A stretch of 64,000 bases of DNA, from assembly GCF_000264995.1 (NCBI RefSeq), contig NW_006767434.1, positions 674,969 to 738,968 of the forward strand. Reading direction: 5' to 3'. Position 1 is the stretch's first letter. Each line of letters begins with the position of its first letter. This DNA is from Punctularia strigosozonata HHB-11173 SS5 (taxonomy: Eukaryota; Basidiomycota; Agaricomycetes; Corticiales; Punctulariaceae). Shown here piece after piece: positions 1-59,550 of the stretch. The position numbers and the translations under genes are program-made. A model generated the notes under the pieces. That model did not search any database and had not been told where the DNA came from. It saw only the letters and a list, made by a program, of their open reading frames with translations.

Positions 1-410
1 TTATCAGCTTGTAACCATATGCTCCGTCCTTACGATTGACGTTTCCACATGGTTCATAGTTCCGATAACTCCTTATTCCACATGGTTCATAGTTCCGATA
101 ACTCCCTATCGATACGAGCTCCGAACCGTGCCTCCGCGTATATAAACTCCTAGCTCCTGTACTCTAACTCCTTAGTTCGAATATCGACTAAGTTACTCCT
201 CTGCTCCGACACGGACTTAGAGCGCGTAGCGACTCAAACCTTAAAGCTTGAGTCTGGTCCGTACTCGCACTCACTCTCTGTATCTCGAAACTCTGCTCCG
301 ACTTTCTCCGACTTTCTCCGACTCTCTTCCGACTCGACTCCGACAATCATCTCGCTAGGTCCGGACGTCACACCTCCGGCGTCGGACTTAGCTCCGTCTC
401 GATCTTGACA
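1..410 (+). mobile_element. LTR, right end only (family A), cut by the window edge
   Basis: This is the right-hand end of a long terminal repeat. Its last bases (CGATCTTGACA, ending at 410) and an internal block near 175-260 (TTCGAATATCGACTAAG, then AGAGCGCGTAGC) match the complete solo LTR at 40416-41164 in the same order and spacing. The terminus TGACA fits a TGTCA...TGACA LTR. It joins directly to LINE sequence at 411, so this LTR element inserted into the LINE. Whether a full element or a solo LTR lies to the left cannot be seen. The superfamily cannot be assigned without internal sequence. Confidence 0.75.
44..109. repeat. Two-copy tandem repeat of 33 bp inside the LTR
   Basis: A 29-bp core beginning TCCACATGGTTCATAG occurs at 44-72 and again, identical, at 77-105, giving a 33-bp period. 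It lies in the presumed U3/R part of the LTR, where short tandem repeats are common. Confidence 0.8.
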
Positions 411-3400
411 CTAACAAGGTAAGGCGGCAGTCTCTTCGCTCTCGGGCCGCCTGTACTGAAGCCCGTTTTTTGCAGGAAGATGTTTCGTTGTGTTCTTGTG
501 GCGATACCCTCCGGCTGGAGTATGTTGATAACCAGATCCGCGACGAAAGCCCAAGCCGGTCTCGATGGGCTGAAATCTAGGTAACCTCTCAGCCATGTAA
601 TCTCTATCGCGCTGTTTCTTGCTTCAACATCCAGTAGGGCCAGGCCCCCTTCGCGGAGCGGCCGGCATAATTGTCGCTTTGAGATGGTGCTCGTTTGGGT
701 GCCCGCCCAAACAAAGTCCATTTCCATTCTCTGGAGTTTCTTCACCACGTCGACCGGCATTCCCTGTGCTTTCGCCAGGAACTGTGTACGTCCTCCGATT
801 ACCCATTGGACGATATGCCTCTTGCCCCACCATGTGGGGTTGCTCCTTTCCCAACGGTCAAAGTCTCTCCTAACCTGTTCGAGGATGGGCTGCCATGGTG
901 CCGTATAGTCAGTAATGTTCCCAATCCATGCGCCTAAAGATCTGATGGCCTCCCCGTCAGCTGCTATTTTCGTTCGTGCTCCAAAGGGCTCGTCGTCCGG
1001 GTGAAGCATTCTATTCGCGACTACCCAAGCACGGTGCTCCGGGGACCCCATAGGTACTACTTCCGTCTTGTCGAGGTTGAATTTCGCGCCTGATACGGAG
1101 CACCATTTCCGTAGTATGTCTTGGAGGTCTCTGTAGCTGTCTCTGCTACTCAGATAGACCGTGGTATCGTCGGCAAACAGGGTGAGTACCACCTTCGCGG
1201 TTAACCCTGGTATGGAGTATCCTCTTATCTTCCCTGAGGCGCGGAGTATGCATGCCAGGGGCTCAATTGCAAGGTTAAACAATAGGCAGGATAGTGGGTC
1301 GCCCTGCCTTACGCCTCTTGATACGCGGAAGCCGTTGCTCATGACTCCATTTATGATTACAGTCGTTCTGGCATTGCCGTACAGGGCCTCTATCGTCGAG
1401 ACGAAGAGCTCTGGCAATCCGAAGTGTCGCAATGTTCGCCCAAGGTATTTGTGGTCGATCTTGTCATATGCCTTCTCCTGATCGAGGGCTACAATAGCTC
1501 CATCCATCTCCATTGCTTCCGCGTAGTCTATCATTACCTGTGACAACCGGATATTGTCGAAGATGCTGCGCCCCGCGATGAAACCCGCCTGATCCGGGTG
1601 TACCATCGAAGGTATAATTTCCGCCAGCTGCAGCGATAGTGCCTTCGTCATTAATTTGTAATCTGTGTTCAGGAGGGTTATCGGACGGTAATTGCTTATC
1701 ACGGTCGGGTCGTTCTTCTTATACAGTGGGCACAGCCAGCCCTGGGTGAAATTTGTGCGGGGGTCGACTCCATGCCTTTGGATGTCCTGGAAAACCATAG
1801 TCAGCGTCCATGCGACGTTGAAGCTGGCTTCTCCCGCTTGTTCCGCCCTCTCGTGCATAGCGTTCAGCTTTTTCCACACCTCGTACGGGATACCGTCCAT
1901 GCCTGTTGCCCGGCCGCTGAGGGACTGCCTCAGGGCTTTCTCCACGGTGTCCCCGTTTAGGGGACGGCTGAGGTCATTCTGCGTGGTGTTTGGCATCTTC
2001 TGGGAAGGCGGTATGCTGTCGAAAACCTCGTTCACGTTCGTTTCCCATTCGGTAGGATCTCGTGCAGCCCCATCTTTCTCGTTTTGGAGTTCATCATAAT
2101 ACCGTTCTGCAAGTGCCGCCATACGGTCCGATCGTGTCTCGTATTTCTCGGGCGCATCATTTGGTGCTCGCAGTCTCCTCATCAAATCGCGCGGCTTCCG
2201 AGGTTTATTCAGGTTAGTCCAGTACTTCGACACCGTTTCGCCCTTCAGTTGGTACCGTGCTCGTGCCACATCCTTTCGGACTTTCCTCATTTTTCCGAGC
2301 AGTTGTCGTCTTTTACTATCCAGGAGGGCTGCCTGTGCGGCGCCGTCCGGGTTCGCGTCGAGCCGCGGGTCGTCACCAAGTTTCCGTAGCGCTTTATCAA
2401 GCGTGTTTACTGCCGATTTCACTTTCCCTATGTTTGCCTTCTCCTTCTTCCTCGCTGTTTCCCTTAGCCATCGTTTAAAATCCTCCCACACCGTTTGTAC
2501 GTTGTGGTTTCCGCGCTGATCCCCACTCTCTCGTAGGGACTCCATCGCCCGCTGGACTTCCTTTCCCCTGTCGGCTATTGCGCTGAATAGCGCGACATCG
2601 GAGAGGCTTGCATGCCCCAACGTCCATCTGCCCTTTCCTATGAGCGGGGCCGAGGTCGGCGCATATTTCACAGATACCATACAGTGGTCAGTCCCCACTA
2701 TGGTGCGGCACATCTTCCATCCGAAGATCGCCTCCGCCGCTGTTTCGTTTGCGTATATCCGGTCGATCCGTGACGCGGATTGTTGCGTCGAGAAGAAAGT
2801 GAACTCCCGGCGCGTCTCAAAGGTTTGTCTCCATGTATCTTGCAATCCGAGATCCATTTTGACCCCATACAGGGCCGCGGCCGCTCTCGTATCGTCCATC
2901 CGCGCTGGAAGGCGATCGATGTCGGCCTCTACCACATTAAAGTCTCCAAGCATGAAATGCGGTTGCGGGAGTTCGTTAGCCTCGAAGGAGCGAGCGAACT
3001 CTTCCCAGAATTCCGGTTGATCAGTTTGCGTGCTCGGCGCGTAGACATTTACCAGGTGCACCACCTCTGCGCCATGCCAAAGTAAGCTTATCGATTGTGC
3101 TCTCCCCTTCACAACTGTGGTTACTGTCACGTTCTCCGTCTTCCACGCAGTGTTTCGTTTGTTGAGTACAAAGGCAACGCCGGCCGAAGAGTGTGCCCTC
3201 TCTGGGTCAGCAGAGTTCAATACCCGTATTTCCGAACCGTAGAGCGAATCAATCTTCGCAAGGTCGTCGTCATCTAGGTGGGTTTCCTGCACAGCGAGGA
3301 CGTTGATTTTCTCATCTCTTACTAACCGGGCGATGTCCGCCCACTTGGATAGTGGTCCTTTTCCACTCTCCTGCCTCCCATTCATATTGAGGGTGGCGAT

Positions 3401-3880
3401 TACCAGCTTTGCTTTTGTATTTAGTTTCGTTGCTGCCCTACCACCATTTGCGCTTCTTCGGGACATGGTGATCCTCGGTCGCATCGTGCTCGCATCTGTT
3501 GTGTTACCCGTTCGTTCGCTCGGCGACCCGGGACCCCCTTCCTCCCTGGCCGTCTGCGTGTTATCCGCACGCACATCTCCGCCTGCCGAAACCCCGCCTA
3601 CTTCATCAGAGCGCCCACCGGCGGTTGAGAGAGGCTCTCTTCGGTGAGCGGGGTTGCTCAAACCGTGATCGACCCTTCCGCCGCTTGTATTGTGATGTTG
3701 AATTGTGCTCGTAGTAGTAGTCAAATTGGTTTTGTTTTGCGCGGGTGCGGGCGACCAACCCGTTGTCCGCGCAGGGTGGATGCGCTGCAGGCCTGCATGT
3801 TCGTAAGAGTGGGCCATCCCCAAAACCACTCGGTCCTTCCGACCAGATCGATCAGTCGAACCCGCTTTCCTGTCCCACAT
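368..3880 (-). CDS. LINE ORF2: APE-type endonuclease and reverse transcriptase
   Basis: A 1170-codon open frame. Residues about 157-405 form an endonuclease/exonuclease/phosphatase domain: catalytic-type motifs are LNMNG near 164, QETHL near 198, LGDFN near 311 and GTDHC near 396. Residues about 655-925 are the reverse transcriptase, with NYRPITLLN near 730, the D-bearing LDQEKAYD near 799, RQGDPLS near 858 and the active-site FADD at 902-905. It would nick target DNA and reverse-transcribe LINE RNA at the nick. The last 14 or so codons and the stop come from the adjoining LTR, so the natural C-terminus (often RNase H or a zinc knuckle in this clade) is absent. The N-terminal 130 residues are low complexity. 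Confidence 0.93.
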   Translation of the reverse strand: MWDRKAGSTDRSGRKDRVVLGMAHSYEHAGLQRIHPARTTGWSPAPAQNKTNLTTTTSTIQHHNTSGGRVDHGLSNPAHRREPLSTAGGRSDEVGGVSAGGDVRADNTQTAREEGGPGSPSERTGNTTDASTMRPRITMSRRSANGGRAATKLNTKAKLVIATLNMNGRQESGKGPLSKWADIARLVRDEKINVLAVQETHLDDDDLAKIDSLYGSEIRVLNSADPERAHSSAGVAFVLNKRNTAWKTENVTVTTVVKGRAQSISLLWHGAEVVHLVNVYAPSTQTDQPEFWEEFARSFEANELPQPHFMLGDFNVVEADIDRLPARMDDTRAAAALYGVKMDLGLQDTWRQTFETRREFTFFSTQQSASRIDRIYANETAAEAIFGWKMCRTIVGTDHCMVSVKYAPTSAPLIGKGRWTLGHASLSDVALFSAIADRGKEVQRAMESLRESGDQRGNHNVQTVWEDFKRWLRETARKKEKANIGKVKSAVNTLDKALRKLGDDPRLDANPDGAAQAALLDSKRRQLLGKMRKVRKDVARARYQLKGETVSKYWTNLNKPRKPRDLMRRLRAPNDAPEKYETRSDRMAALAERYYDELQNEKDGAARDPTEWETNVNEVFDSIPPSQKMPNTTQNDLSRPLNGDTVEKALRQSLSGRATGMDGIPYEVWKKLNAMHERAEQAGEASFNVAWTLTMVFQDIQRHGVDPRTNFTQGWLCPLYKKNDPTVISNYRPITLLNTDYKLMTKALSLQLAEIIPSMVHPDQAGFIAGRSIFDNIRLSQVMIDYAEAMEMDGAIVALDQEKAYDKIDHKYLGRTLRHFGLPELFVSTIEALYGNARTTVIINGVMSNGFRVSRGVRQGDPLSCLLFNLAIEPLACILRASGKIRGYSIPGLTAKVVLTLFADDTTVYLSSRDSYRDLQDILRKWCSVSGAKFNLDKTEVVPMGSPEHRAWVVANRMLHPDDEPFGARTKIAADGEAIRSLGAWIGNITDYTAPWQPILEQVRRDFDRWERSNPTWWGKRHIVQWVIGGRTQFLAKAQGMPVDVVKKLQRMEMDFVWAGTQTSTISKRQLCRPLREGGLALLDVEARNSAIEITWLRGYLDFSPSRPAWAFVADLVINILQPEGIATRTQRNIFLQKTGFSTGGPRAKRLPPYLVSVKIETELSPTPEV

Positions 3881-5942
3881 TAGTGGTCAGTAAATTTGGG
3901 CAGGTTCTGTATACCCGTCCGAGCTCACCCTGTCCGAGCGGCAGCTCGGGATCTATCCTCAGGTGCACAAACTCAAACTGCTCGACGGCGAATCATTGCG
4001 CGTAAAGACTGTTGCGCATTTTTCTCGAGCCAGCTCTCCTACAGGATCCGTACATGGTATTCGTAAAGACAGTTATCCGCATTTCGCGGGGTAGGTTACA
4101 GCTGATACACGGGTGCTCAGAAACGACCATGTCCACGGCCGCGGCCTCGCCCTCGGGCGCGCGATGCCCCTCGCGGGCCTGCCCATTTACCGTCGTAGTC
4201 GCGTTGCGGCCATTCTTCTTGGTTGCCCCTGCGCGTTTGTGGACCGTTCCATCCAGGGATTTCGGGGAAAGGGCACATGCCTTTGGGGTGTCCGATGCCG
4301 TGGCAGTAGCCGCACGTGAAGGGGATCTTGTTTATCGCGGAGCCGTTCATAAGAGAGGTGTACGAAAGGTGCCGCATGAAGTTGCGGATGCGGAACCAGA
4401 GCGTGTGAGGGTCACGCTCGTCCTCGGTTCCCATATTGTCGGGCAACAGTATGGCGATGTCGGCGAAGACGTTGTAGCGAGGAGCCACGCGTCCTCCGCC
4501 GTCCTTTGCGTCGATCTGGTCGATATGCACAGAGTCCAGGAGGCCCTCGAAAGCCCAGTCGAAGTCGTCGTTATGAACCTCTCCGCATAGATCGGCGATT
4601 GCCGCCTTATTTCGCTTCAGCGTCACAATTACCGCGTCCTTGGCCAAGGCTGTGCCCTGTATCATGAAGCCTGAGATGGACTGTACGAAACGGGGGGGCG
4701 GGAACGACTTGTCGAGCATCCGTACTTCGAAGGCGAGGCCTCGGAGGGCCCAGATGCGTTGTTCGACGAGGTGGTCGATAGTCGCCGGGGGGACGTTGTA
4801 TATCAGGAAGTTGTGGGGGATGCCTTCGTACCACGGACGCTTGGTCGGGTTGCCGTTGGTGTCAAGGGGGGCGGCCTTTCGGACGGGGACGGAGATCATG
4901 AGTTCGGTCAAGCCCGTCGCGGCGCGGAGTACAGCTTCTAACTCTCTGCCATATTGTAGTACTTCCTCGCAATCATCGGTGTTGAGGTCGAAGATGGACG
5001 CAGTCGCCTGGGTGCCCTCCATCGATAGCCACTGCTCAGCTTGCTCTTCATCCAAGCCATCGAAGGCCCGCGTGGCGTGCTCCGTATGTATCTCAGGCCA
5101 GCCCCCGAGGGGCGCCGGCGTGTGCTCGATGTCTACGGTGGCGGCCGCAAAAGAACCGGGAGATCGCGATTCGTTCCCAATAGCGAGGGCACTGCGCAAT
5201 CGCGAGAAGGCCGCCAGGCCTGGCCGGGCTCCTGCGTTGGCCGTAAAAGCGGGCCGCTGTCCAGGGACGGCAGGGACGCTTGCGTGCGCGACGGGTGCGT
5301 TGGACGTGTGGTTAGGGGTGACAGGCGCACCAGGGCCTTGGGGGTTCCCTTGTGCGAGGGCGGGAGCGAAGGGGTCTTCGGGTGCTGCAGTGGCGTTGCT
5401 GGCTGCGGTGCGCGTGAAGCGTAGGGGTGTGATCGAGCCTGGGGTTGTCGCGGAGTCTGCGGGGGGTTGCCGACCTCCGTGCCTCTGCGGAGTCTGCGGG
5501 GTTTCGATGGCACCCTGCTTGGGCGTTTCGCGCGCGAGTGCTCGGGATTTGTTCACTTCCGCTGGCGGGGAGTCCTCTTCTATCAAGGGCCTCTTCGAGT
5601 GCTGGGAACCAGCAGTGTCGGTGTCTGGTGGGATAGTCTTTGACGCGCCTACGATGGCGACCGTTATCCTTGGTGTCGCCGCAAGGGGTGTGGTATCATC
5701 GGGTGGGGGACTACACCCGGCGTGAGTTCATTATTCCGTCGTAAGCGTAGGGTGGTCGCATACCTGTTCGTCATGTTACCGCCACTGTCTACATCCATGG
5801 CCGAGTCCTCATTTCCGCTCGTGGCAGGAGTATTCCCGGCGCCGTTGGTGGTGGTTGCAGTACCCGTCGGTGACTCCGGCGGTCCAGCCGCCAGCGGGTT
5901 ACGTCGCACGTGACTTAGGCTCTTCCTCTGCCCTTTCGCCAT
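411..5942 (-). mobile_element. Tad1-like non-LTR retrotransposon (LINE), 3' end lost
   Basis: A minus-strand LINE with the usual two-protein layout: an upstream RNA-binding ORF1 (4117-5942) with a CCHC knuckle, then ORF2 (to 3880) with an endonuclease and reverse transcriptase. About 236 bp separate the frames. The 3' part, including the end of ORF2, the 3' UTR and tail, is missing because an LTR abuts at 410. The 5' end is not defined; the 5' UTR probably extends to the right of 5942. Both frames are long and open, so the copy was young when interrupted. Tad1 clade is inferred from the ORF1 knuckle and from general resemblance to basidiomycete elements. Confidence 0.85.
4117..5942 (-). CDS. 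LINE ORF1: nucleic-acid-binding protein with CCHC knuckle, possibly spliced
   Basis: The main open frame ends at 4117 and encodes about 500 residues with a CCHC zinc knuckle (CGYCHGIGHPKGMC) near the C-terminus, followed by an Arg/Gly-rich tail (RGRGRGRGHGRF). That combination is typical of ORF1 proteins that coat LINE RNA. An upstream ATG at 5942 opens a second frame (MAKGQRKSLSHVRR...). The two frames join cleanly if 5711-5763 (53 nt, GTATGC...TGTAG) is removed, giving about 590 residues. The alternative is that the true start is within the downstream frame, or that a frameshift separates the two. No RNA-recognition motif is obvious in the middle region. Confidence 0.75.
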
Positions 5943-43555: not shown

Positions 43556-44023
43556 TGTCAGGGTACGCGCTGGACCTCCTAGGAGCAGTGTGGATCCCTT
43601 GGGACGGTGGCGGAGACGCTGTCACACAAGGCAGGGAAGCAACTGAGAATATATACAAAGATACGAGGTGAATACACATACCTGTCGCACAAGGCAGGGA
43701 AGCAACTGAGAGAACAAGTCTGAGTTGCTCCCTGGTGCGACAGACGACTATATAGTAGCTGAATAATCCATCAGTAAAACAAGGGACAGTCCAATGAGAG
43801 AAGAGGAGGCTCCTAGGGGCACGTGACCCATGGAACGGAGGGCTGCATGTTGTGCGGAGGCCCTAGAAGACCCAAAAGGATAGAAGAATGTATGGGGCTC
43901 CTAGGAAACCCGAAAGGATGGAAGGAGCATCTGGGAGCTCCTAGGAAACCTGAAAGGGTAAAAGGAGCGTGTGGGGAATGCGGGGAAACAGGAAAAGACG
44001 AGTACTGGAGGCATGCCATGACA
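43556..44023 (+). mobile_element. Solo LTR, family B, copy 1 (468 bp)
   Basis: It starts TGTCAGGGTACGCGCTGGACC-like and ends GCCATGACA. The flanking 5-mers are TGTAC (43551-43555) and TGTAT (44024-44028), a target duplication with one difference. Inside is a TATA-like ACTATATAGTAG and a CCAATGAG box, and the tract GCAAGGCAGGGAAGCAAC-like occurs twice. No internal element remains. Confidence 0.88.
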
Positions 44024-46418
44024 TGTATGACCTCAAGCGTGGTTGGTATGTCTCTGAGGACCTTGCCATGCGTTGGGACGATTACAACGCCCACCTCAAG
44101 CACTTTTGCAACGGCAATCTAGGCATCTCGAGTGAGCCCCCGCCCAACGTCTTTTTTGATTGCATGTGTTCTCATGCCTCCCGTCCAGACAGATGCACCT
44201 TGTACATGTTCCGTTGCACAGCCAGCAAGAACTTCACCAGATATCTTGTGACCGAAGCTCGAAATCAGATCATGATGCATGCCTGTGCCACCCAGACCTC
44301 TGCAGTGCGTCTTCCAGCCCACCGTTTTTGCCGCCCTGTTGGGGCCAGTCACACTTGCTCACATATGTCACACCAGTGGAGCTACATGCCCAAAATGACC
44401 ATCGTCAACCTGTCAAGTCTCTTCCTCGCCCAGCCTGAGGACCACAGCACCCTCCAGAGGTGGAAGGTCAGTCCGCCATCTCCTGCTTCCTCCTTGCAAC
44501 ATGAATCACAGCCCTTACATTGTGTGTTCTGTGTGCACAGACTGTTCTCTTGTTGACCGCGATCACAGATGCCTATGATTATGGCCGCTGCGGACCACAC
44601 AGCACTGCTCAATGATCCCATGCTCATCAGCATGCGAAACAAGCGGGATGAGATGAGCGATCCATGCAGCACTGCACTGCCTGAATCGCGGAAACCCTCA
44701 TCTGCATATCCTTGCTCTCCAGTTCCATCAGCAGATGGTCAATCTCAAGGCCCTCATCCATTTGGATCCCACCCAAGATGCTGTCAAAGAGCTCCTTGCT
44801 CTCGATCCAGCATACATAGCCCACACAAACCAATACAACAGCCTTGTGGGCCGTCATGAACATCTGTATCTCGCAAGCGCCAGAAAAACCCATTTTGCAG
44901 GTGCTTCTGAACGGGTTCTGTCGGGCAAGGCACATCCTCGACCCCGCTTACCAATCGACATGTATCCTCATTCTTGACCCTAGCCATCCTCCACAATGGT
45001 CCCCTTGGCTGCCAAGAACCTCAACCTACCCGATCCTGCCTTGCCCAACCATGAGGAGACGGTGAGTAGCCAGGCCTACAACACAATAACGGTTCCTGGC
45101 GACACAACGACGGTTTTGGATGCCACGATCACGGTCTCTGCTGACACGACTGCATGCTTGGACACCACGACCACGGTTCCCAAAGCCGCGTCTTGGATGT
45201 GACAACAATGGTCCACAATGCTGCCTTGAACGCTGTCCTCACCAATCCTCTCCTATTGGTGTAGATGACCATCGCCGATGCACCCGAAACCCGCACCAAC
45301 AAACATCTGCTCAACTCAATCAATGCTCTCCTCCGGCTCCCAGAGGAACGCCATAGCACATACTATCCAGAAGAAGGTCCGACGACAGACGGCAAATGTC
45401 CGGTATGCAAGGAAACACTTGCGTGCGTATGCCTCTGTGTCCTGTTTGTGATATGGAATCCTGAGCATGGCTGCAGCAAAATGCTCAGTTGCAATTACTA
45501 CCCAGGCCAGCACATTCACGCATGCCTCACACATCACAAACAAGAGATGGCCATTGCCAGGCTCAACGGGTGTTACGCAGGCAGCCCCCACTGCTGTCCG
45601 TGGGCTGGGTGCAAGCACCAAGATCTATGGTCGACACAAAATGGCTTTCTTGGCCATGTCCTTGTCCATGCCAAGCACCGCCAAAGCAGAATGCTCTGAG
45701 GCTGCTGCAAATGGACTGTCCGAGGACTCAAATGCGGTGCAAGCCCCGACGACTGGATTGCCCATCTGGAGGAAGTTCACAATGTGATCCGGGATTCAAA
45801 GGTCAACATCAAGTATTGTTTCATCTGCTCATGCTGGTAACACATTTTGTGTTGATGTCGCCGCGACGTCCGTGCTCACTGGCCAAATCCTCGTCAGGTT
45901 CAATATATATGGCAGCAGCGAGGAGTGGGAGGGCCACCAGGCTGAACACTTTGACCAATTATTTGAGGCATTTGCAACATGCAGCAATGCGATCGACTGC
46001 GCTGAGCCTCCGATACTTGTCCAGCACGTCAACGGATATACAATCACAGCAAGGGGTTCGACAGCAAGTAGCTCGAGCTCCATGGATATTTGCGCAGGGG
46101 CATGTGTTATGCACCGATGTTCTGTCCCTGGTGTGTCTTTGATGAAGAGGAACATGGGGTGGCAACTCGGATGAAGCAGTGAGGGCTTCATATTCTCACA
46201 CATTCCATTTTGCTGATGGACATGGCATACCCAGATGGACGGACTCAACGCAGCTGAAAACCCATCTTGCGGCCCACCTTGCGAAGATTACAGACCATCA
46301 AACAATCTGTCGGGTTCCCAGCTGTGGGTGTCATATGTTTTCCATTGACGGACTAGGCATGCACATCATCACTGCCCATCACCTGCCTGTCTATGGCATC
46401 ACCAAGCACACCAAGCAC

Positions 46419-46898
46419 TGTCATGGCACACCTCCAGTACTCGTCTTTTCCTGTTTCCTCGCATTCCCCACACGCTCTTCTTACCCTTTCAGGTTTCCTA
46501 GGAGCTCCCAGATGCTGCTTCCATCCTTTTGGGTTTCCTAGGAGCCCCATACATTCTTCTATCCTTTTGGGTCTCCTAGGGCCTCTGCGCGTCATGCGGC
46601 CTTCCTAGGCCGTTCCACTGGTCATATGCTGGGCACCCAAGGAGCCTCCCTCTCTCTCATTGGACCATCCCTCGCGTTGCTGATGGATTACTCAGCTACT
46701 ATATAGCCGACTGTCGCACCAGGGAGCAACTCCGACTTGTTCTCTCAGTTGCTTCCCTGCCTTGTGTGACAGGTATGTGTATTTCCATCGTATATTTGTA
46801 TATATGCTCAGTTGCTTCCCTGCCTTGTGCGACAGCATCTCTGCCACTGTCTCAAGGGATCCACGCTGCTCCTAGGAGGCCCAGCGCGTACCCTGACA
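46419..46898 (-). mobile_element. Solo LTR, family B, copy 2, inverted (480 bp)
   Basis: This is the reverse complement of the same family: on the + strand it starts TGTCATGGC and ends TACCCTGACA. The flanking 5-mers AGCAC (46414-46418) and AGCAT (46899-46903) form a target duplication with one difference. It has the same doubled internal tract and TATA-like box as copy 1. Confidence 0.88.
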
Positions 46899-47619
46899 AG
46901 CATCATAGCCTCATGCTCCCACCCTCGCCAGCTGAACCACCACTCGGACAACAAGCTGAGCCTGTGCGACCTGCTGCTGCTGCTTTGGATCTGTGGTATC
47001 AATGCCTTGGCTGTTGCCAAGTCAAGAAGAACATCCAGAAGCACATCGGCGGTGCCTCGGAGCAAAAGCCGTGTTGCACAAAAGCTTGATATGTCCTCTT
47101 TGACAGAGACGCTCATGCAACCATTGGCCCAGTCATCGAGTGGAAGGTGAGCCCAGGCTTGTCTTCATTGCTGAGCGGCAGCATATGCAGGGCAAATGCT
47201 CCAGATAATCAACCAAGAAGGGCAAGGAGAGTCCTTTGAAACACATTTGCAGAAAGAACACGTGCAAGCTACGATGGATCGACATTTGTGAACACCTGAG
47301 TCTCGACAAAGATGGCCAATGCCACAACGCCTTCTGCAAAGTCGAACATGGGGTCCGCCGAGAGAAATGGCCTCTCATCAACTTTGATGAACAGCTCAAG
47401 ACCGCACCTCTGTTGGTGCCTGGCTTCATGCAAGCGCCTTCCAGGGCAGAAGTGTGTCCATTCCATCCACCGCTACTCACAGTTCCTGTCTCCCAGGTCA
47501 CAAAAATGCAACATGATCTCGATGCACGGCACAAGGAGACCGAGCATCTTTGCTCGGACAATCAGTGCCTCTGTTCACTCTCTGATCAACACCAAACGGA
47601 GTCTGAGAAACATAGGCTG

Positions 47620-48132
47620 TGTCAGGGTATGCACTGGACCTCCTAGGAGCAGTGTGGATCCCTCAGGACAGCAGCGGAGACACTGTTGCACAAGGCAGGG
47701 AAGCAACTGAGTATATATATGAAGGTATGAAGGAAATACACATACCTATCACACAAGGCAGGGAAACAACTGAGAGAACAAGTCTGAGTTGCTCCCTGGT
47801 GTGACAGGTGACTATATAGTAGCTGAATAATCCATCAGCAAAACAAGGGATGGTCCAATGAGACAAGAGGAGGGTCCTCGGGTGCCCAACACGCGACCAG
47901 TGGAACAGCCTAGGAAGGCCGCGCAATGCGTGGAGGCCCTAGGAGCACTGAGTGACAGAATGAAACAGGGGAAATGCCAAAAGGAAGTGCGTGGGAAGCC
48001 TAGGAAGGCGCGGGAGAGTGTAACCAAACAGGGAAGCAGAAGCAGGAGCAGGAGCAAACAAAATGGGACAGAAGCGGAACCAAAAGGGGAACAATGGGGA
48101 CATGAGGCGAGTGTGGAAGGTGTGCCCTGACA
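47620..48132 (+). mobile_element. Solo LTR, family B, copy 3 (513 bp)
   Basis: It starts TGTCAGGGTATGC and ends GCCCTGACA, with a perfect 5-bp target duplication GGCTG at 47615-47619 and 48133-48137. The first 300 bp follow copy 1 closely; the last 200 bp diverge. The exact duplication suggests it is the youngest of the three. Confidence 0.9.
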
Positions 48133-50162: not shown

Positions 50163-50413
50163 ATACTGTAGTTTTACGACCTTAGGTTCGTCCCCTGTCC
50201 CCTGGCAGCCCGAACTGAACCTAATTTCCCGTGTTGTCCCCTGTCCCCCACCAAAATCCAGGGCCTGAGCTGATCGTGAGAATTATGTTGCTTACTGTGA
50301 GAATATATTTAACTGACTCCAGTCAGTTTGCGAACTTCCCACGGCCCCGAACTTGCAGCTGTCCCCTGTCCCCCGGAAGGCGGACCGAACCTAAGGTCGT
50401 AAGACTACAGTAT
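50163..50413. mobile_element. MITE with 28-bp terminal inverted repeats (about 250 bp)
   Basis: The left end ATACTGTAGTTTTACGACC (continuing TTAGGTTCG) is matched as an inverted copy at the right end, CGAACCTAAGGTCGTAAG then ACTACAGTAT, with one mismatch over 28 bp. A TA dinucleotide flanks the CTGTAG core on each side, as expected for Tc1/mariner-type insertion. There is no coding capacity; the interior repeats CCCCTGTCCCC several times. Confidence 0.8.
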
Positions 50414-52021: not shown

Positions 52022-53430
52022 CTAAGCCCTGTTTTCCTTGGCGGACGCGGCAAGGTATACCCGGCGAGCCGTCAATGCCCTCTTCACAACCTGCACCTCG
52101 AAGGGCGTAATCTCGCCCCGTTCCAGGCGCGGATGCAGTTGTTCGTCTAGCCAAGAGTTGCGCTCGTCCACGTCCCAGCTCACGAGTCCGTCGAGCTCGG
52201 CCTGACCAGGCCGATCAGCATCTCGCAAATCCATGAGGAATAGCAACAAAAGCGGACCTGTTGGCGAATACCTAGGCTGTGAAAGACGGCGAAGAGATGA
52301 TCCATTGGTACGTCCAAGTTTCGCAGGAAGGCCTCCACCGGGTTGGCATCGGAGAGTGACGGTTGTGGGTCCCCGGGCCTGCATCCCAAGGAGGGTTTTC
52401 GAAGCTTCCCCACGAACGGGCGGACTTGAGCTCGATCGCGACTGATCGTAGACGGTCCGCGGATGGAGTGCTAACAACACAAAGCGGTCGGATAACGTGA
52501 AGGAACAGAGTCAAGGATGAAAAAACAAACCATCTCGACATCGTTGTCGACCTCGAGTCTCGCGATGGGACTCTGCTTGCATTCATCGCTTTTGGCACGG
52601 GCAATCCGGCTGCTTCGCCTCGGAGTGCCATTGCCGGCCTCGCCGTCTGCATCCTCATTCGCGTCGATAAGGTCAGCCTTTACCTGAGGCTCAAATACAG
52701 TTGGCTGCTTCAACACGCGCACTGCCGATTTCGAGAGCGATGCTCGAGCCCGCCCTTGAGCTTGCCTATGCCAATGGGCACGAAGCATCCTCATTTTTTT
52801 CCAGCCTCGCGGAGAGCCATCGGGTAGCCTATCCTTCAGAGTCGCGTGCATGTACTGTTCCATGTAACGTAGGACGGGCCATGCATCTTCGAACCGTCGG
52901 AAATACGGATACTGATCGCAGATCTGATATTGACAAGTGAGCCAGAGAATTTGTAAGCCGAACGAAGACTTTTGACCTCCTTCGTACATAGATCGACCGC
53001 GGTCTTGTCCTGTAGGTTCATGCACTTCTTCGGGTCCAGGTGTCTCTGCATCGCCCGGCGCATATCGTACTGAAGCACGCGTCGGAGGCTGGAACGACGA
53101 AGGATCGCGGAGGCAGATAGCACGTACAGTGATAACGTGCCACGCGTCTGGCAAGTTCCCGTCCAGCTCGTCCAGCGTGTCTTTTAGGCGTCGCCGTTTG
53201 ACTACGCCATCGATTTCGTAGGTATCACACAAAGGATTCGGAATCAAGTTATTTTCTGGCGACATATAAGGGGGGCAGCCGCAGAGGAGATGAATGTAGA
53301 GAGATGAGAAAGGAGAGTTTCCTTCATGATTCGAATTCGGAACGCCGCTTTCTTCTGAGTGGGAGCGTTCTCCACGTATAGACGCGGTCAACCCGCTCAA
53401 GGCGCGCTCCGTCGAAGACGCGTCGGTCAT
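52022..53430 (-). CDS. Hypothetical protein, conserved-looking, five exons
   Basis: I do not recognise the family. Five exons join in phase: 53430-53128, 53069-52977, 52923-52531, 52470-52258, 52201-52022, giving 393 aa. Introns are 42-60 nt with GT...AG ends. The best-ordered segments are YDMRRAMQRHLDPKKCMNLQ, QYPYFRRFEDAWPVLRYMEQ, the basic GNGTPRRSSRIARAK (possible nuclear signal or AT-hook-like patch), and ANPVEAFLRNLDVPMDHLF to the C-terminal EITPFEVQVVKRALTAR. There is no signal peptide or membrane helix. The frame opens at a GTG, so the first ATG (53430) is used. A DNA transposon lies 31 bp upstream of it (its target duplication ends 40 bp away), so the promoter is probably displaced. 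Confidence 0.7.
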
Positions 53431-53461: not shown

Positions 53462-53470
53462 GTTGAGAAG
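53462..53470. repeat. Left target-site duplication GTTGAGAAG (9 bp)
   Basis: It is identical to 59542-59550 and abuts the first base of the left inverted repeat (TAGTCTCGT). Removing the element and one copy restores the host sequence GCGCGTTGAGAAGCGCG. Confidence 0.93.
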
Positions 53471-53711
53471 TAGTCTCGTTACCAGCCTGCCTGAATCCGA
53501 CGAGCGAGCAAAGTGGCTTCAGACAGTCTGGGCGGTTTCCGTGGGAATTCATAAGCTCACCGGGAACGTGACTTTCACGTGATGCAGAGTAAGAGTCGGA
53601 ATGTGATCGGAAGTGATCAAGTCAGACCGAGTAAGAAATGAACAGTGATCGGTCAGTTGCGAAAGTGACCCATCAGTTCACGCACACGATCCATCAGATT
53701 TGCGGTCGCGG
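53471..53711 (+). repeat. Left terminal inverted repeat (about 241 bp)
   Basis: The outer 53 bp (53471-53523) match the right end with gaps. The core 53524-53638 (115 bp) is identical to the inverse of 59376-59490. The inner part is patchy but ends with CAGATTTGCGG, also present at the right inner edge. The motif GTGATCGG and close variants recur near 53610-53665. A palindrome TCACGTGA lies in the core. Confidence 0.92.
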
Positions 53712-53827
53712 CATCATCGCGCCACGAAGTTGTCAAATGTGGCAATTGCCATATCCTTCCCTTGCCCACTCCTTTGACCTCCTCTGCTGGCTCTCACTAT
53801 ACCAGAACTCCTGCCAAAATCTCCAGC

Positions 53828-56800
53828 ATGCAGGGGGGCATCAATAACAAGCCCGAAGAACACACAGAAGCAGTAGAAGGGCCGGGAGGACAGAGGCTGG
53901 TGCAGGATACCGGGGCTGATGGGCCTGCAGAGGGCCAAGACGGAGGTACTGGAACACCCAGCAGTACGTACCTGTTGTACATACTGTACATACTGGGTAG
54001 CCTCTGATCTTACAATGTGTACAGGCCGTTCTACTTCTGCATCGTCCAGAAGTTATAGCACCCCGTCCCGTCTTCGTACATTAGACCATTTGTCTACACC
54101 TAGCACCAGCCAGAATACACATTCCTTTTTCAACTTCTCATTTCCAAGCTCATACGAGGGCTTTGAGTTGCTATCATCAACATCCTCCGTCGACAACGAA
54201 CGCGGCAGAAAGAGACGACGACAAGGAGAAGTGCCGATGACTTCGTTTTCCTTGCCTCAGCCTTCCGCAACGTACAACACTTTCTTTGACAAAAGCTCTG
54301 CACCATCACAGTTCAATACACCTACGCCTTCCGTCAGCTCATCCAGAAGTCCGAGTCTCGTGCCTGTTGGTCTCCTTGGGTTGGGTCATACTACGTCTCC
54401 GGATACTCCGAGCCCTGCTCCTTCAACAGGGGCAGCATTACCTATGGAATCAAATTCCAACCCCAGCTCCTCGTACTGCTGCCCGCGGCCATGCTGCAGG
54501 TCTCGCAAAACCCAGGCAGATCGTTACCGGCTGGTCCTGACAATCCTGCAAGAGGGCTCTATCGCATTCAGTGACTTCGTCGCCGAAGTCTTGACTAATC
54601 CTGACTATCTGGGGTATCAAACACGTTTCTATGACCCGAAATCTGGACACATGGCGCAGCTCCTGAACTCGGTATGGGACAGAAAGTCAGGCCGGAAATG
54701 TATGATTGATTGGATGAAACCCAAGGCAGAGGAGCTTATCTGCCAGGTTGTTTACGACGAGATGGATCAAATAAAAGGGAAGATGACGCTGAAAGTACTT
54801 GACATCACGGACGAACACCTCAGTCAATGGTCGTTTCGTTCATCAATTCAGGATCCTATCACCGAGGCGGCACCGACACTCTGTCGTATTCTCACATCGG
54901 CTGCTCAGACTTCCAAGGCTCAGAGGTTGAACAAGAAGAAACAGCCCGATGTACTTGTTGCCGTTATTGTTTCTCAGCTAGCCAACCATCGGTCTCGGTT
55001 CTGCATCTCGTTTGCCGGGGGTTTCTCGTTGACGGCATACTTCTCTGGATGCTCAGAGCTTGCGATTAATCTCCTCAACAAGTGTGGTCTCTCAATCTCC
55101 TACGACTCTCTCATGGCAATCTTCCCCGCCCTTGCAGACTCCTGTATTGAACTCGCTCGGCAGTTAGCACAATCCCCCGATGGATACTCACTTGGTTACG
55201 ACAATACCAATGTCAAGACATCTATACATGTGGAGCAACGACGGGATGCTCCAGCCAAAGTTCAGTCTGGTACAGCCTCGTGTATCTATACACTCTACAA
55301 CATTCATGATGGCTCCGCACTGGAACTCAAGCCAATCTTGGCAAACTGGCGACGAATTACTAGGCTCCCTCGTGCACTATCTTTCAAGCAGGATATACGG
55401 CCAAATCCTGAACAGATTCAAGCCTTTGATGCACAGTCTCTTGCTCATATTCTCCGTGTGCTTACGACTCACGTTGACGCTTTCAAAAAATTCGAAGACG
55501 ATCCCTTATTCTCATATCTACCACGTCGTAAGCTATCAGATACGCGACGACAACGTGCCTTTCCATTGCGCACAACAACCATCGAAGAAGCCAGTGTTGC
55601 CGGCAATATTCAAGTTCATAACAACATCCATCTCGAGCAGCTTGGCATGACTCGTGACAAGCTTGAAAATCGTGCTATCCCAGTCTATGTTGACCTTGCA
55701 ACAAACCTCCACATTCGTAGCGCTCAGATTCTCCGTGCTCGGGACATGTCTGCCCATGACCGCTTGTCGTGTCTTCAGCTCGGTGTTGGACTGTTCCACC
55801 TTCTTCTCAACTTACTCTGGTGTGTCCTTGGTATCCACCGTGGCAAAGACGATGATCTGGGGTCTTTGAGCTGGTTCTTCGTGCTTGTGTCTCGTACTCG
55901 CCTTGGAGCTCAGCATCCTGACTTCCATTTACTCAAAAACACTCTGGCGCAAATCTTTGACGGCCTGATTCTCCACTTCTGGCTTGTCGAGTCTGGCTGC
56001 TCTGACTTCACCGCCTTTGCTGCCAAGAACTGCACAGCAGAGGAGCTGACTCATATTGCACGGTGTATTCAACGCAAATATACCACAATAGGGAGCTCTA
56101 ATGACAATGAAACGGGTGACCTTGCCCGTGAAAACATCAAACGGCTTCTCCGTGACTTATTGTACATCCGTGAAGTTGACTATGCTATCCGCGATGGCGA
56201 CTGGGGAAGAATTGAAGACATTCTCGGTCCATTGTGTATGATGTTCCGTGCAGGAGGCTCGAACAATTATTCAACAGAGATCATGCACCTTATCTTGCAA
56301 CTGAAGTACATCTGGCCATCGGACTTTGCGTAAGAGGACAACAAGTAGCTGCGGTCAATGTACTGACAGGTCCTTGTGTACAGGGATGTTATGCGGGATA
56401 ATATGATAATCAATCTCACCGGGAAGAATTTACCCGTTGATTTGAACATGGAGCACCTGGTGCGCATCGGAAAGGTATGAAGCCCATCAGTCATGTCCTC
56501 CACTACTAATACACCACTACAGAGTATGCTACCAAATCATGGATCACCAAACTACTGGGAAGTTCTTGGTCATGCATCAGCAGCTATTCCATCCCTCCAG
56601 AAAGCACGCGATGCCTATGTCAAAGGCCTCAAAGGAAGCTACATGGGAACATCACATACAACACCAGATACCTCCGCAGCCGTATGGTCAGTAATGGATG
56701 CTGCCCAGACTCACAAGCTACAGACATGCAACCCAGCGCGTAAGGCTGTCAAGAGAACAATTGATACCATACTTACGGGCCGCAATAAATTGCAAGCGGG

Positions 56801-56918
56801 CTCAGTGGATACATTCAACAAAAAGATAGCGGCTATGGGCTTAGGTGTGGACAGCGGAGCAGAGGATGATGAGCTCGAACCAGTAGACATTGATGTATCA
56901 AATTTACAGGATGATTGA
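53828..56918 (+). CDS. DUF6589-like protein, candidate transposase
   Basis: I read four exons: 53828-53963, 54025-56329, 56384-56474, 56523-56918, giving 975 aa. The N-terminal 190 residues are Ser/Thr/Pro-rich with a basic patch (RGRKRRRQ) and a cysteine cluster (YCCPRPCC). The remaining 750 residues resemble the fungal domain of unknown function DUF6589, which I recall as highly copied in basidiomycetes (from memory, not searched). Candidate acidic residues in conserved-looking settings are D438 (LGYDNTN), D602 (VYVDLATN) and E797 (NNYSTEIMH). A D-D-E-like layout is my inference. The ATG at 53828 lies about 120 bp inside the left TIR, so that repeat is the likely promoter. The tail ends Asp/Glu-rich. 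Its position in a defined transposon argues for a transposase role. Confidence 0.85.
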
Positions 56919-56926
56919 CTATACAT

Positions 56927-59288
56927 TCAGTTTATGGGCTGTAGTGGCAATACACCCATCCTAGCTCTCTTAACAGGGCGATCAGTACAGTGCACATTCT
57001 CCTTATTTGTGTATGTGAAATCCCAGAGGACCTTGAAGAGCGGCCCAGCCCATCGTGATTTCCACTCCTCTGTTTCTCCAAGTATGTTGGTGATCTTATC
57101 GAGGCTGAGAGGTCCGTCCTTTCCGTTCATCTGAATCCGAGCAATTTGTGGTATGTCGTGGTCCTCAAGTATGTCTTGGGGAGTCGAAGCATACACTGAC
57201 TGCGCTGTCTTGAACATATCGTCTCGCCACTTTCGGAGTAGGACCTCAAGTGCTGGACGTTCAGCGATTGGTCTATAGCTTTTACGGGGCCGCTTTTCTC
57301 CGGTTGACATATCCAAGATGTCGCTGAGAGATGCTGGTGCTTGATACGGGAAGAAGGAGTCCAGCGTGAATGAACGCCGCGTGTCGTCACCCGGATGTAG
57401 TCGGTCGCAGCACCAAGGGCCCGTGAAGTCAAGTGCTAGTGTGTGTTAACAATAGTGTACGCTGGAATCTCAGTGAGGCGTACCATTAGCTGAGGAATCA
57501 TGCAGGTAACTTGCATAGCAAGCACGCAAGCATGTTTGAGATTGGAACGTGCGTACGCAGGCGCGACTTGCAAGTTCTTCTCGTTTGAATGTCTTCTTCT
57601 TGCTCTTTGGATCAATTGGAGCAAGAGGCATATCAGGGCTGGCTTCTTCATGAATACTAGTGATGATGGTCGCCTCCTCTACCCATCGCTCTGCCATCAC
57701 TAAGAATAGAGCAGGAACCTTAGCATCACGAGCCCGCCCCGCTCGCTGCAAATCCTCTGCCTGGTCCCGTCCTATGCCATAGTTGATGATAAGCGTGACA
57801 CTGGTGGGATTCAAGCCCTGTTACAAGTACAGGTGAGTATGAAGTCCACATTGAAACATGGACGGTCAATTTGGCTCACATTCGATGCCGCTTGTGAACA
57901 AACCAAGATTTGGCAGTTCCTTGTGGGTGAATTGAAGCTGTCGTACACATCATCAAGATGTGCTAGTGACATGTCGCTGTGATACTCTCGCACAATACCA
58001 TGACTACGTAAGGGCTCTGGTAATCGATTGGTGAGATGTACAGCAATCTGCCCTATCAATGATTTATTGTCGACAAAGATCATAGTCTTTTTGAGGCCGG
58101 TACTAGGAAACGGGATAGGAATAACACGATCCAAATTCTTGAGGTTACGTAGATCACCGTCAACGACTAGAGTAGCGTAGACCAAGTTAGATCGATTAAG
58201 AGGGCACAAGACCATGAGAGCGTCGTCAGAGATCCGCGTAAGCCGCTTTAATGGTCCCATAACATGCGGTGGACAGATAGTTGCCGACAGAAGTGTCCAA
58301 GCGCATTCAGGAGCAAGCCGGATGCGAAGCTCGCCAAGCCTTCCATAGCATGGGCGATAGGGTGCCTTCCCACCACGTTCAGAACCAGACAGAACAATAT
58401 GATGAGCCTCATCAACGAAGATCCGCTTTATCCGTTTGATGAACGGATTCTTGTCATTTGTGCGTGCGAGCATGAGCTTCGCAAGCCGTGGTACCTGTCC
58501 TGATGTCCGATCAACAAAGAACTGCTCAGGTGCTGTGATTAACACTTGATACCCGGGACCGGGATGTATACTCTGCGATCTGTGTCAGTATCGCGGGTAA
58601 ACTCTGTAAAATGACTCACCTTCCACAAGGCTTTGTCGTTTGGTGTATCGTGATTAATGGCGATGGCACGTATCCCAAAGGAGGCAAAGTCTTTGATCTG
58701 TACCACTAGTTCAACATTATGATTGCAGAATGGGATAGTGTGGGTGACCTGACTCGTCTGCAAGCGCTTCAAGGGTGAGAACACAATGCCAAGTTCCATC
58801 GGACGAAGAAGCCAGGCAATTATCATAGCAAAAGTCTTCCCAAAGCCAGTTCCCGCACTCAGTATGCAATCCTGATGGTAGACACTTGAGAGGCCCGCCT
58901 GAAGCTGCATGTCACGGGGAAGGCTTGATCCACTAGTATACAGAAAGATCAACGAGCAGGCGAGCAAGATATCCCGTTTGTATTCGGTCGAGGACTTCGG
59001 AAGATCGACGACAGGTCTTCTATCGAAGCTTGAACAGGCACTGCGAGTGTCTTCTGGAAGCGCTGCCCAGCAGTATGATGGAATCCCCGGGGTGTTGGCG
59101 CCAGTAACAGCAAGAAAGGATCCGGTGCAGTGGGTGACAAGCTCAGAATAGCTCAGTTTTCGAAGCTTGTTTGCTTCTTCCAAGTGCAGATCCATGGGCA
59201 GGGCATCCACTGAGGTCATAGCGCAGCCAGATTCCGAGAGTTTGGCACAGAATTCAAGTGCAGACGACAGCGAGCCCAATTTTTGCAT
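56927..59288 (-). CDS. RecQ-like superfamily 2 DNA helicase of the transposon
   Basis: I read four exons: 59288-58620, 58572-57880, 57817-57484, 57435-56927, giving 734 aa. Helicase motifs are in order: a Q-motif-like region (PRDMQLQAGL), Walker A SAGTGFGKTFAM (K151), Walker B/DEAH-box IFVDEAHH (277-280), motif III SAT (about 319), motif V region GLNPTSVTLIINYG and motif VI LQRAGRARD (about 478). Cysteines in CLRACYASYLHD and, after an intron, WCCDRL resemble the RecQ zinc-binding segment. It should unwind DNA with ATP. No HRDC domain is visible. The start codon is 33 bp inside the right TIR, and the stop is 8 bp from that of the DUF6589 gene. A chromosomal RecQ/Sgs1 would be far longer. Confidence 0.88.
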
Positions 59289-59320
59289 TAGTGCAAACCG
59301 TCGAACTTAGCCACAAAACG

Positions 59321-59541
59321 ACGCGCGTCCGCAAATCTGATGCATCACATTCATAAACTGACCGATCACATCGCCTTTCTTACTCGGTCTGACTTGATCA
59401 CTTCCGATCACATTCCGACTCTTACTCTGCATCACGTGAAAGTCACGTTCCCGGTGAGCTTATGAATTCCCACGGAAACCGCCCAGACTGCCTATCGGCA
59501 CTTTGCTTGCTCGTCGCCCAGGCAGTGTGGTTACGAGACTA
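59321..59541 (-). repeat. Right terminal inverted repeat (about 221 bp)
   Basis: This is the inverse counterpart of 53471-53711, with the identical 115-bp core at 59376-59490. It ends ...CGAGACTA at 59541, directly before the target duplication. The start codon of the helicase gene lies 33 bp from the inner edge. Confidence 0.92.
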
Positions 59542-59550
59542 GTTGAGAAG
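59542..59550. repeat. Right target-site duplication GTTGAGAAG (9 bp)
   Basis: Identical to 53462-53470. It follows the last TIR base and is followed by host sequence CGCGTTGGAG. Confidence 0.93.

Follow-up and report, generated by a model that had tools for sequence, protein, structure and literature searches.

The window analysed here, a stretch of 64,000 nucleotides from the basidiomycete Punctularia strigosozonata HHB-11173 SS5 (contig NW_006767434.1, positions 674,969 to 738,968 of the forward strand), contains an element with the attributes of a DNA transposon. Between inverted ends, and flanked by an exact duplication of the target site, lie two predicted genes on opposite strands. One encodes a protein carrying the domain DUF6589, the other a RecQ-like helicase. 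The features assigned to the element, with coordinates that refer to the window, are as follows.

53471-59541, no strand assigned: whole transposon, 6,071 bp
53462-53470, no strand assigned: left copy of the 9-bp target-site duplication, GTTGAGAAG
59542-59550, no strand assigned: right copy of the 9-bp target-site duplication, GTTGAGAAG
53471-53676, plus strand: left terminal inverted repeat, about 206 bp, with an identical core at 53524-53638 (BLAST and alignment)
59337-59541, minus strand: right terminal inverted repeat, with an identical core at 59376-59490 (alignment and BLAST)
53603-53652, plus strand: two copies of the subterminal motif GTGATCGG (at 53603 and 53645), 42 bp apart
59362-59411, minus strand: mirror copies of GTGATCGG (at 59362 and 59404)
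53828-56918, plus strand: gene 1, four exons, encoding a putative transposase of 975 residues with DUF6589
53964-54024, 56330-56383 and 56475-56522, plus strand: predicted introns of gene 1, all GT-AG
55200-56279, plus strand: candidate catalytic acidic residues of the gene 1 protein, chosen by eye (D438, D602 and E797)
59288-56927, minus strand: gene 2, four exons, encoding a RecQ-like helicase of 734 residues
58619-58573, 57879-57818 and 57483-57436, minus strand: predicted introns of gene 2

Ends of the element and its target site

Alignment of the two inverted ends with BLAST gives 88.4% identity over approximately 206 bp, and the identity is unevenly distributed. Of the outer 53 columns in the alignment 40 are identical, exactly 115 identical columns follow and these in turn give way to a weaker tail. 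The outermost 14 bp, TAGTCTCGTTACCA on the left and TAGTCTCGTAACCA on the right when read inwards, agree at 13 positions. As a motif by itself this 14-bp sequence is not above chance, with four matches in the window against 3.36 expected when up to three mismatches are allowed. A perfect core flanked by more divergent outer sequence would be surprising had both ends aged alike, and gene conversion between the arms, or asymmetric requirements placed on the outer ends, could account for the pattern. A 32-mer from the core, searched with up to three mismatches, matches the window twice, once at either end of the element, and gives no match in 100 shuffles.

The duplication GTTGAGAAG is exact and one further base matches on neither side. 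Identical 9-mers occupy 34 of 2,000,000 random pairs of positions in this window. The GC content is 49.7% in the element and 55.9% in the remainder of the window.

Inside the inverted ends the motif GTGATCGG is present in two copies by each end, with the same 42 bp spacing and in mirrored arrangement, and is found nowhere else within the element. The paired copies are candidate protein-binding sites.

The initial annotation of this stretch had described inverted termini with an identical 115-bp core, a perfect 9-bp target duplication and two spliced genes inside. The ends and the duplication are present as described, and both genes were recovered as open models. On sequence grounds the element appears to be an autonomous, structurally complete and well preserved DNA transposon, one that presumably is, or was, active.

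The DUF6589 protein and the helicase

The introns of both genes were picked by a script that required an open frame and the GT...AG consensus, and the gene models are predictions. The predicted introns are 47-62 bp in length, and their shortness, like the gene content, would suit a basidiomycete. For the first intron of gene 1 there are alternatives one point lower in score, leading for example to proteins of 974, 971 or 968 residues, and these change a few N-terminal residues.

Comparison of the whole 975-residue protein with Pfam, a search that the initial annotation had proposed, identifies DUF6589 (PF20231) with an E-value of 3.9e-90. The match covers residues 495-889 and profile positions 4-410 of 410, in effect the full length of the domain, and DUF6589 is the sole family matched at an E-value of 0.1. 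Perilipin, seen at an E-value of 0.053 with the isolated last-exon frame and under the family cut-off, vanished when the whole protein was used. Pfam labels DUF6589 as a family of unknown function, in agreement with the earlier remark that the domain has no assigned role.

Since gene 1 is the only long gene found in the element that does not encode the helicase, its product is the best transposase candidate, and the earlier suggestion to this effect is strengthened by the lack of any other Pfam family at the same threshold. Our best reading is that the DUF6589 protein is a transposase or part of one. Three acidic residues may be catalytic: D438 in the sequence GYDNTN (codon at 55200), D602 in VYVDLATN (55692) and E797 in NNYSTEI (56277). 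The first of these precedes the DUF6589 match. With such residues the protein could be a DDD/E transposase with an RNase H fold. The motif [CD]xxH does not occur in the 975-residue model, and there is consequently no sign of the signature given for hAT, P, MuDR, Kolobok or Dada (PMC9587614).

The gene 2 protein matches the Pfam families Helicase_C (E 2.8e-13) and DEAD (E 3.7e-8). By sequence, the solved structures nearest to it are an entry named RecQ, 4tmu (E 2.7e-5), and one named ATP-dependent DNA helicase, 1oyw (E 1.3e-4); we take the second to be the Escherichia coli RecQ. The motifs GTGFGKT at residue 146, DEAH at 277, SAT at 319 and QRAGRARD at 478 are presumably helicase motifs I, II, III and VI, respectively. 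A cysteine-rich stretch, residues 541-580, resembles by eye the zinc site of RecQ, and no Pfam zinc model matched the protein. ResIII, a restriction-enzyme helicase subunit, was encountered at an E-value of 0.013, under the cut-off, and was rejected. No nuclease family is above the cut-off among the Pfam matches of the two proteins. The pairing of a DUF6589-type protein with a RecQ-like helicase, as first annotated, is borne out by the strength of the PF20231 match and by the nearest solved relatives of the helicase being RecQ.

The collections searched for relatives were prokaryotic or viral, and negative results obtained with them say little about fungi. The DUF6589 exon gave four pattern stretches in viral_contigs and 26 in genome_contigs, none of them a relative. 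In viral_contigs a 53-residue piece around GYDNTN gave 25 stretches and the helicase three, again with no relatives, and an exact search with the core of the terminal inverted repeat returned no match. The DUF6589 exon region had no tblastn match in phages and plasmids. PF20231 was detected in neither the single phage lambda record nor any of 14 control genomes, a result that is no evidence of absence.

Probable kinship with AcademH and competing explanations

AcademH elements bear terminal inverted repeats. Kojima is said to have described them in 2020 (Mob DNA 11:15) as a lineage of helicase-encoding DNA transposons in animals and fungi. Target duplications are given as 9 or 10 bp for AcademH and 3 or 4 bp for AcademX, and are related to the encoded helicase and nuclease, respectively (PMC10045372). 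In Basidiomycota, Ascomycota and Mucoromycota AcademH is described as low in copy number, and the helicase domains recorded in the same study, which include DEAD and Helicase_C, are attributed to AcademH, KolobokH and Helitron (PMC10799480). A ‘RecQ Helicase in Academ’ was already mentioned in 2013 (PMC3627910). Academ is listed among the superfamilies with a DDD/E transposase, and terminal inverted repeats are treated as general to DDD/E transposons (PMC9587614). Putative non-autonomous Academ elements are reported from the mushroom Marasmius oreades (PMC8290104).

Two unusual traits of the element, its helicase of RecQ type and its duplication of 9 bp, together correspond to those described for AcademH or Academ, and most probably it belongs with the AcademH kind. 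It displays the 9-bp duplication, the helicase and the inverted ends of that lineage in addition to a transposase candidate, and no difference from AcademH was established on the described features. We estimate a probability of roughly 0.8 that this DNA transposon is of the AcademH kind, autonomous and structurally complete, with the DUF6589 protein as its transposase. AcademX, of the same superfamily, differs from the element in having a nuclease and a duplication of 3 or 4 bp (PMC10045372), and that identity was set aside in view of the 9-bp duplication and of there being no nuclease family above the cut-off. Subtelomeric RecQ-like helicase genes are likewise fungal and located at repeated places; they lie near telomeres and the available texts mention no inverted ends (PMC4522978, PMC7473861). 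Such an origin was set aside because the helicase gene sits within exact transposon ends and beside an indoleamine 2,3-dioxygenase (IDO) gene; telomere repeats were not searched for.

Several observations weigh against placing the element in AcademH. The kinship, most probable in our view, is read from published descriptions of such elements. The element is present in the window as a single copy. AlphaFold, applied to single sequences, produced no usable fold for 54474-56327 or 55050-56327, with mean predicted local distance difference test (pLDDT) values of 37.2 and 38.4, respectively. When the PDB was searched by sequence with the DUF6589 exon, a single entry matched, no better than expected by chance (E 0.63). 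The term DUF6589 was absent from the literature searched, in which PF20231 retrieved an unrelated physics paper only, so that no printed link with AcademH was seen there.

Is the likeness to Academ a matter of kinship? The DUF6589 transposase might represent a separate, undescribed superfamily, unrelated to Academ, whose RecQ-like helicase and 9-bp duplications arose independently of those of AcademH. The descriptive nature of the likeness and the silence of the literature on DUF6589 would suit such a scheme, but the two features have already been given together for AcademH or Academ and we consider it unlikely. The initial annotation had raised an undescribed superfamily of helicase-bearing transposons. 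That claim is not supported, as the kind is already known and AcademH elements with a helicase and duplications of 9 or 10 bp are published (PMC10045372). The annotation had also allowed that the family might already be catalogued; at the level of the lineage, AcademH, it probably is. Alternatively the DUF6589 protein could be an accessory protein or cargo, the element being moved in trans by another transposase. The low pLDDT values, which bear on the proposed fold and candidate catalytic residues, are compatible with this idea, but the 975-residue protein is the sole long non-helicase gene model in the element, it is open throughout and it matches no other transposase family. We regard an accessory or cargo role as distinctly improbable.

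Elements of the Kolobok superfamily that carry a RecQ helicase, such as KolobokH and its relatives, also deserve comparison. KolobokH has been reported from fungi only and its transposase domain is followed downstream by a RecQ helicase, whilst the red-alga element Kolobok-1_CCri has its RecQ helicase on the complementary strand, the arrangement observed here (PMC9587614). In our element the helicase has a gene of its own, on the strand opposite to gene 1, a departure from KolobokH that given the red-alga case is not decisive alone. The target duplication of Kolobok is TTAA. Against this the 9-bp GTTGAGAAG is strong evidence, as is the finding that the C/DxxH motif, given for the Kolobok transposase (PMC9587614), is nowhere in the 975-residue protein. 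An identity with KolobokH was set aside on these three counts, and a Kolobok affiliation in general is the least credible of the explanations considered.

We return to an AcademH-like transposon with a DUF6589 transposase and to how it might move. The transposase would bind the inverted ends, possibly through the paired GTGATCGG motifs, cut or nick these ends and join them to the target with a stagger of 9 bp. Repair of the stagger by the host would then generate the 9-bp duplication. The RecQ-like helicase of the element probably acts by unwinding or remodelling DNA, at the ends or at the target, in the course of excision, strand transfer or gap repair.

Surroundings of the element and significance

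To the left of the element a minus-strand frame has its first ATG at 53430, 40 bp away. Counted from one stop codon to the next it comprises 335 residues, or 319 if counted from this ATG, and it has no Pfam match. The right-hand neighbour, also a minus-strand frame, matches IDO (E 2.7e-116) and has its stop 219 bp from the element.

Other repeats were noted in the window. Three related blocks, at 43556-44023, 46419-46898 (inverted) and 47616-47945, are 85-89% identical in pairwise comparison and share a common end starting TGTCAGGGTA. Two open reading frames in this region (43556-47945) have no Pfam match, and the blocks are perhaps a nested transposon or a non-autonomous family with long ends. 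A 251-bp unit at 50163-50413, similar to a miniature inverted-repeat transposable element, has 28-bp inverted ends (ATACTGTAGTTTTACGACC...) that are 96% complementary; a target duplication was sought by eye and none was clear. On the minus strand at 368-5727 there is, judged by domain content, a non-long terminal repeat retrotransposon with endonuclease and reverse transcriptase in one frame and an upstream frame of 536 residues that has no Pfam match.

The link between DUF6589 and AcademH may be new to print within the literature searched, which did not include the primary AcademH description. An open DUF6589 gene within exact transposon ends is reason to test whether this family should be renamed a probable transposase family, and entries for DUF6589 in the gene lists of fungi could be examined as possible transposon genes. 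The element also offers a structurally complete candidate for studying the role of a transposon-borne RecQ-like helicase.
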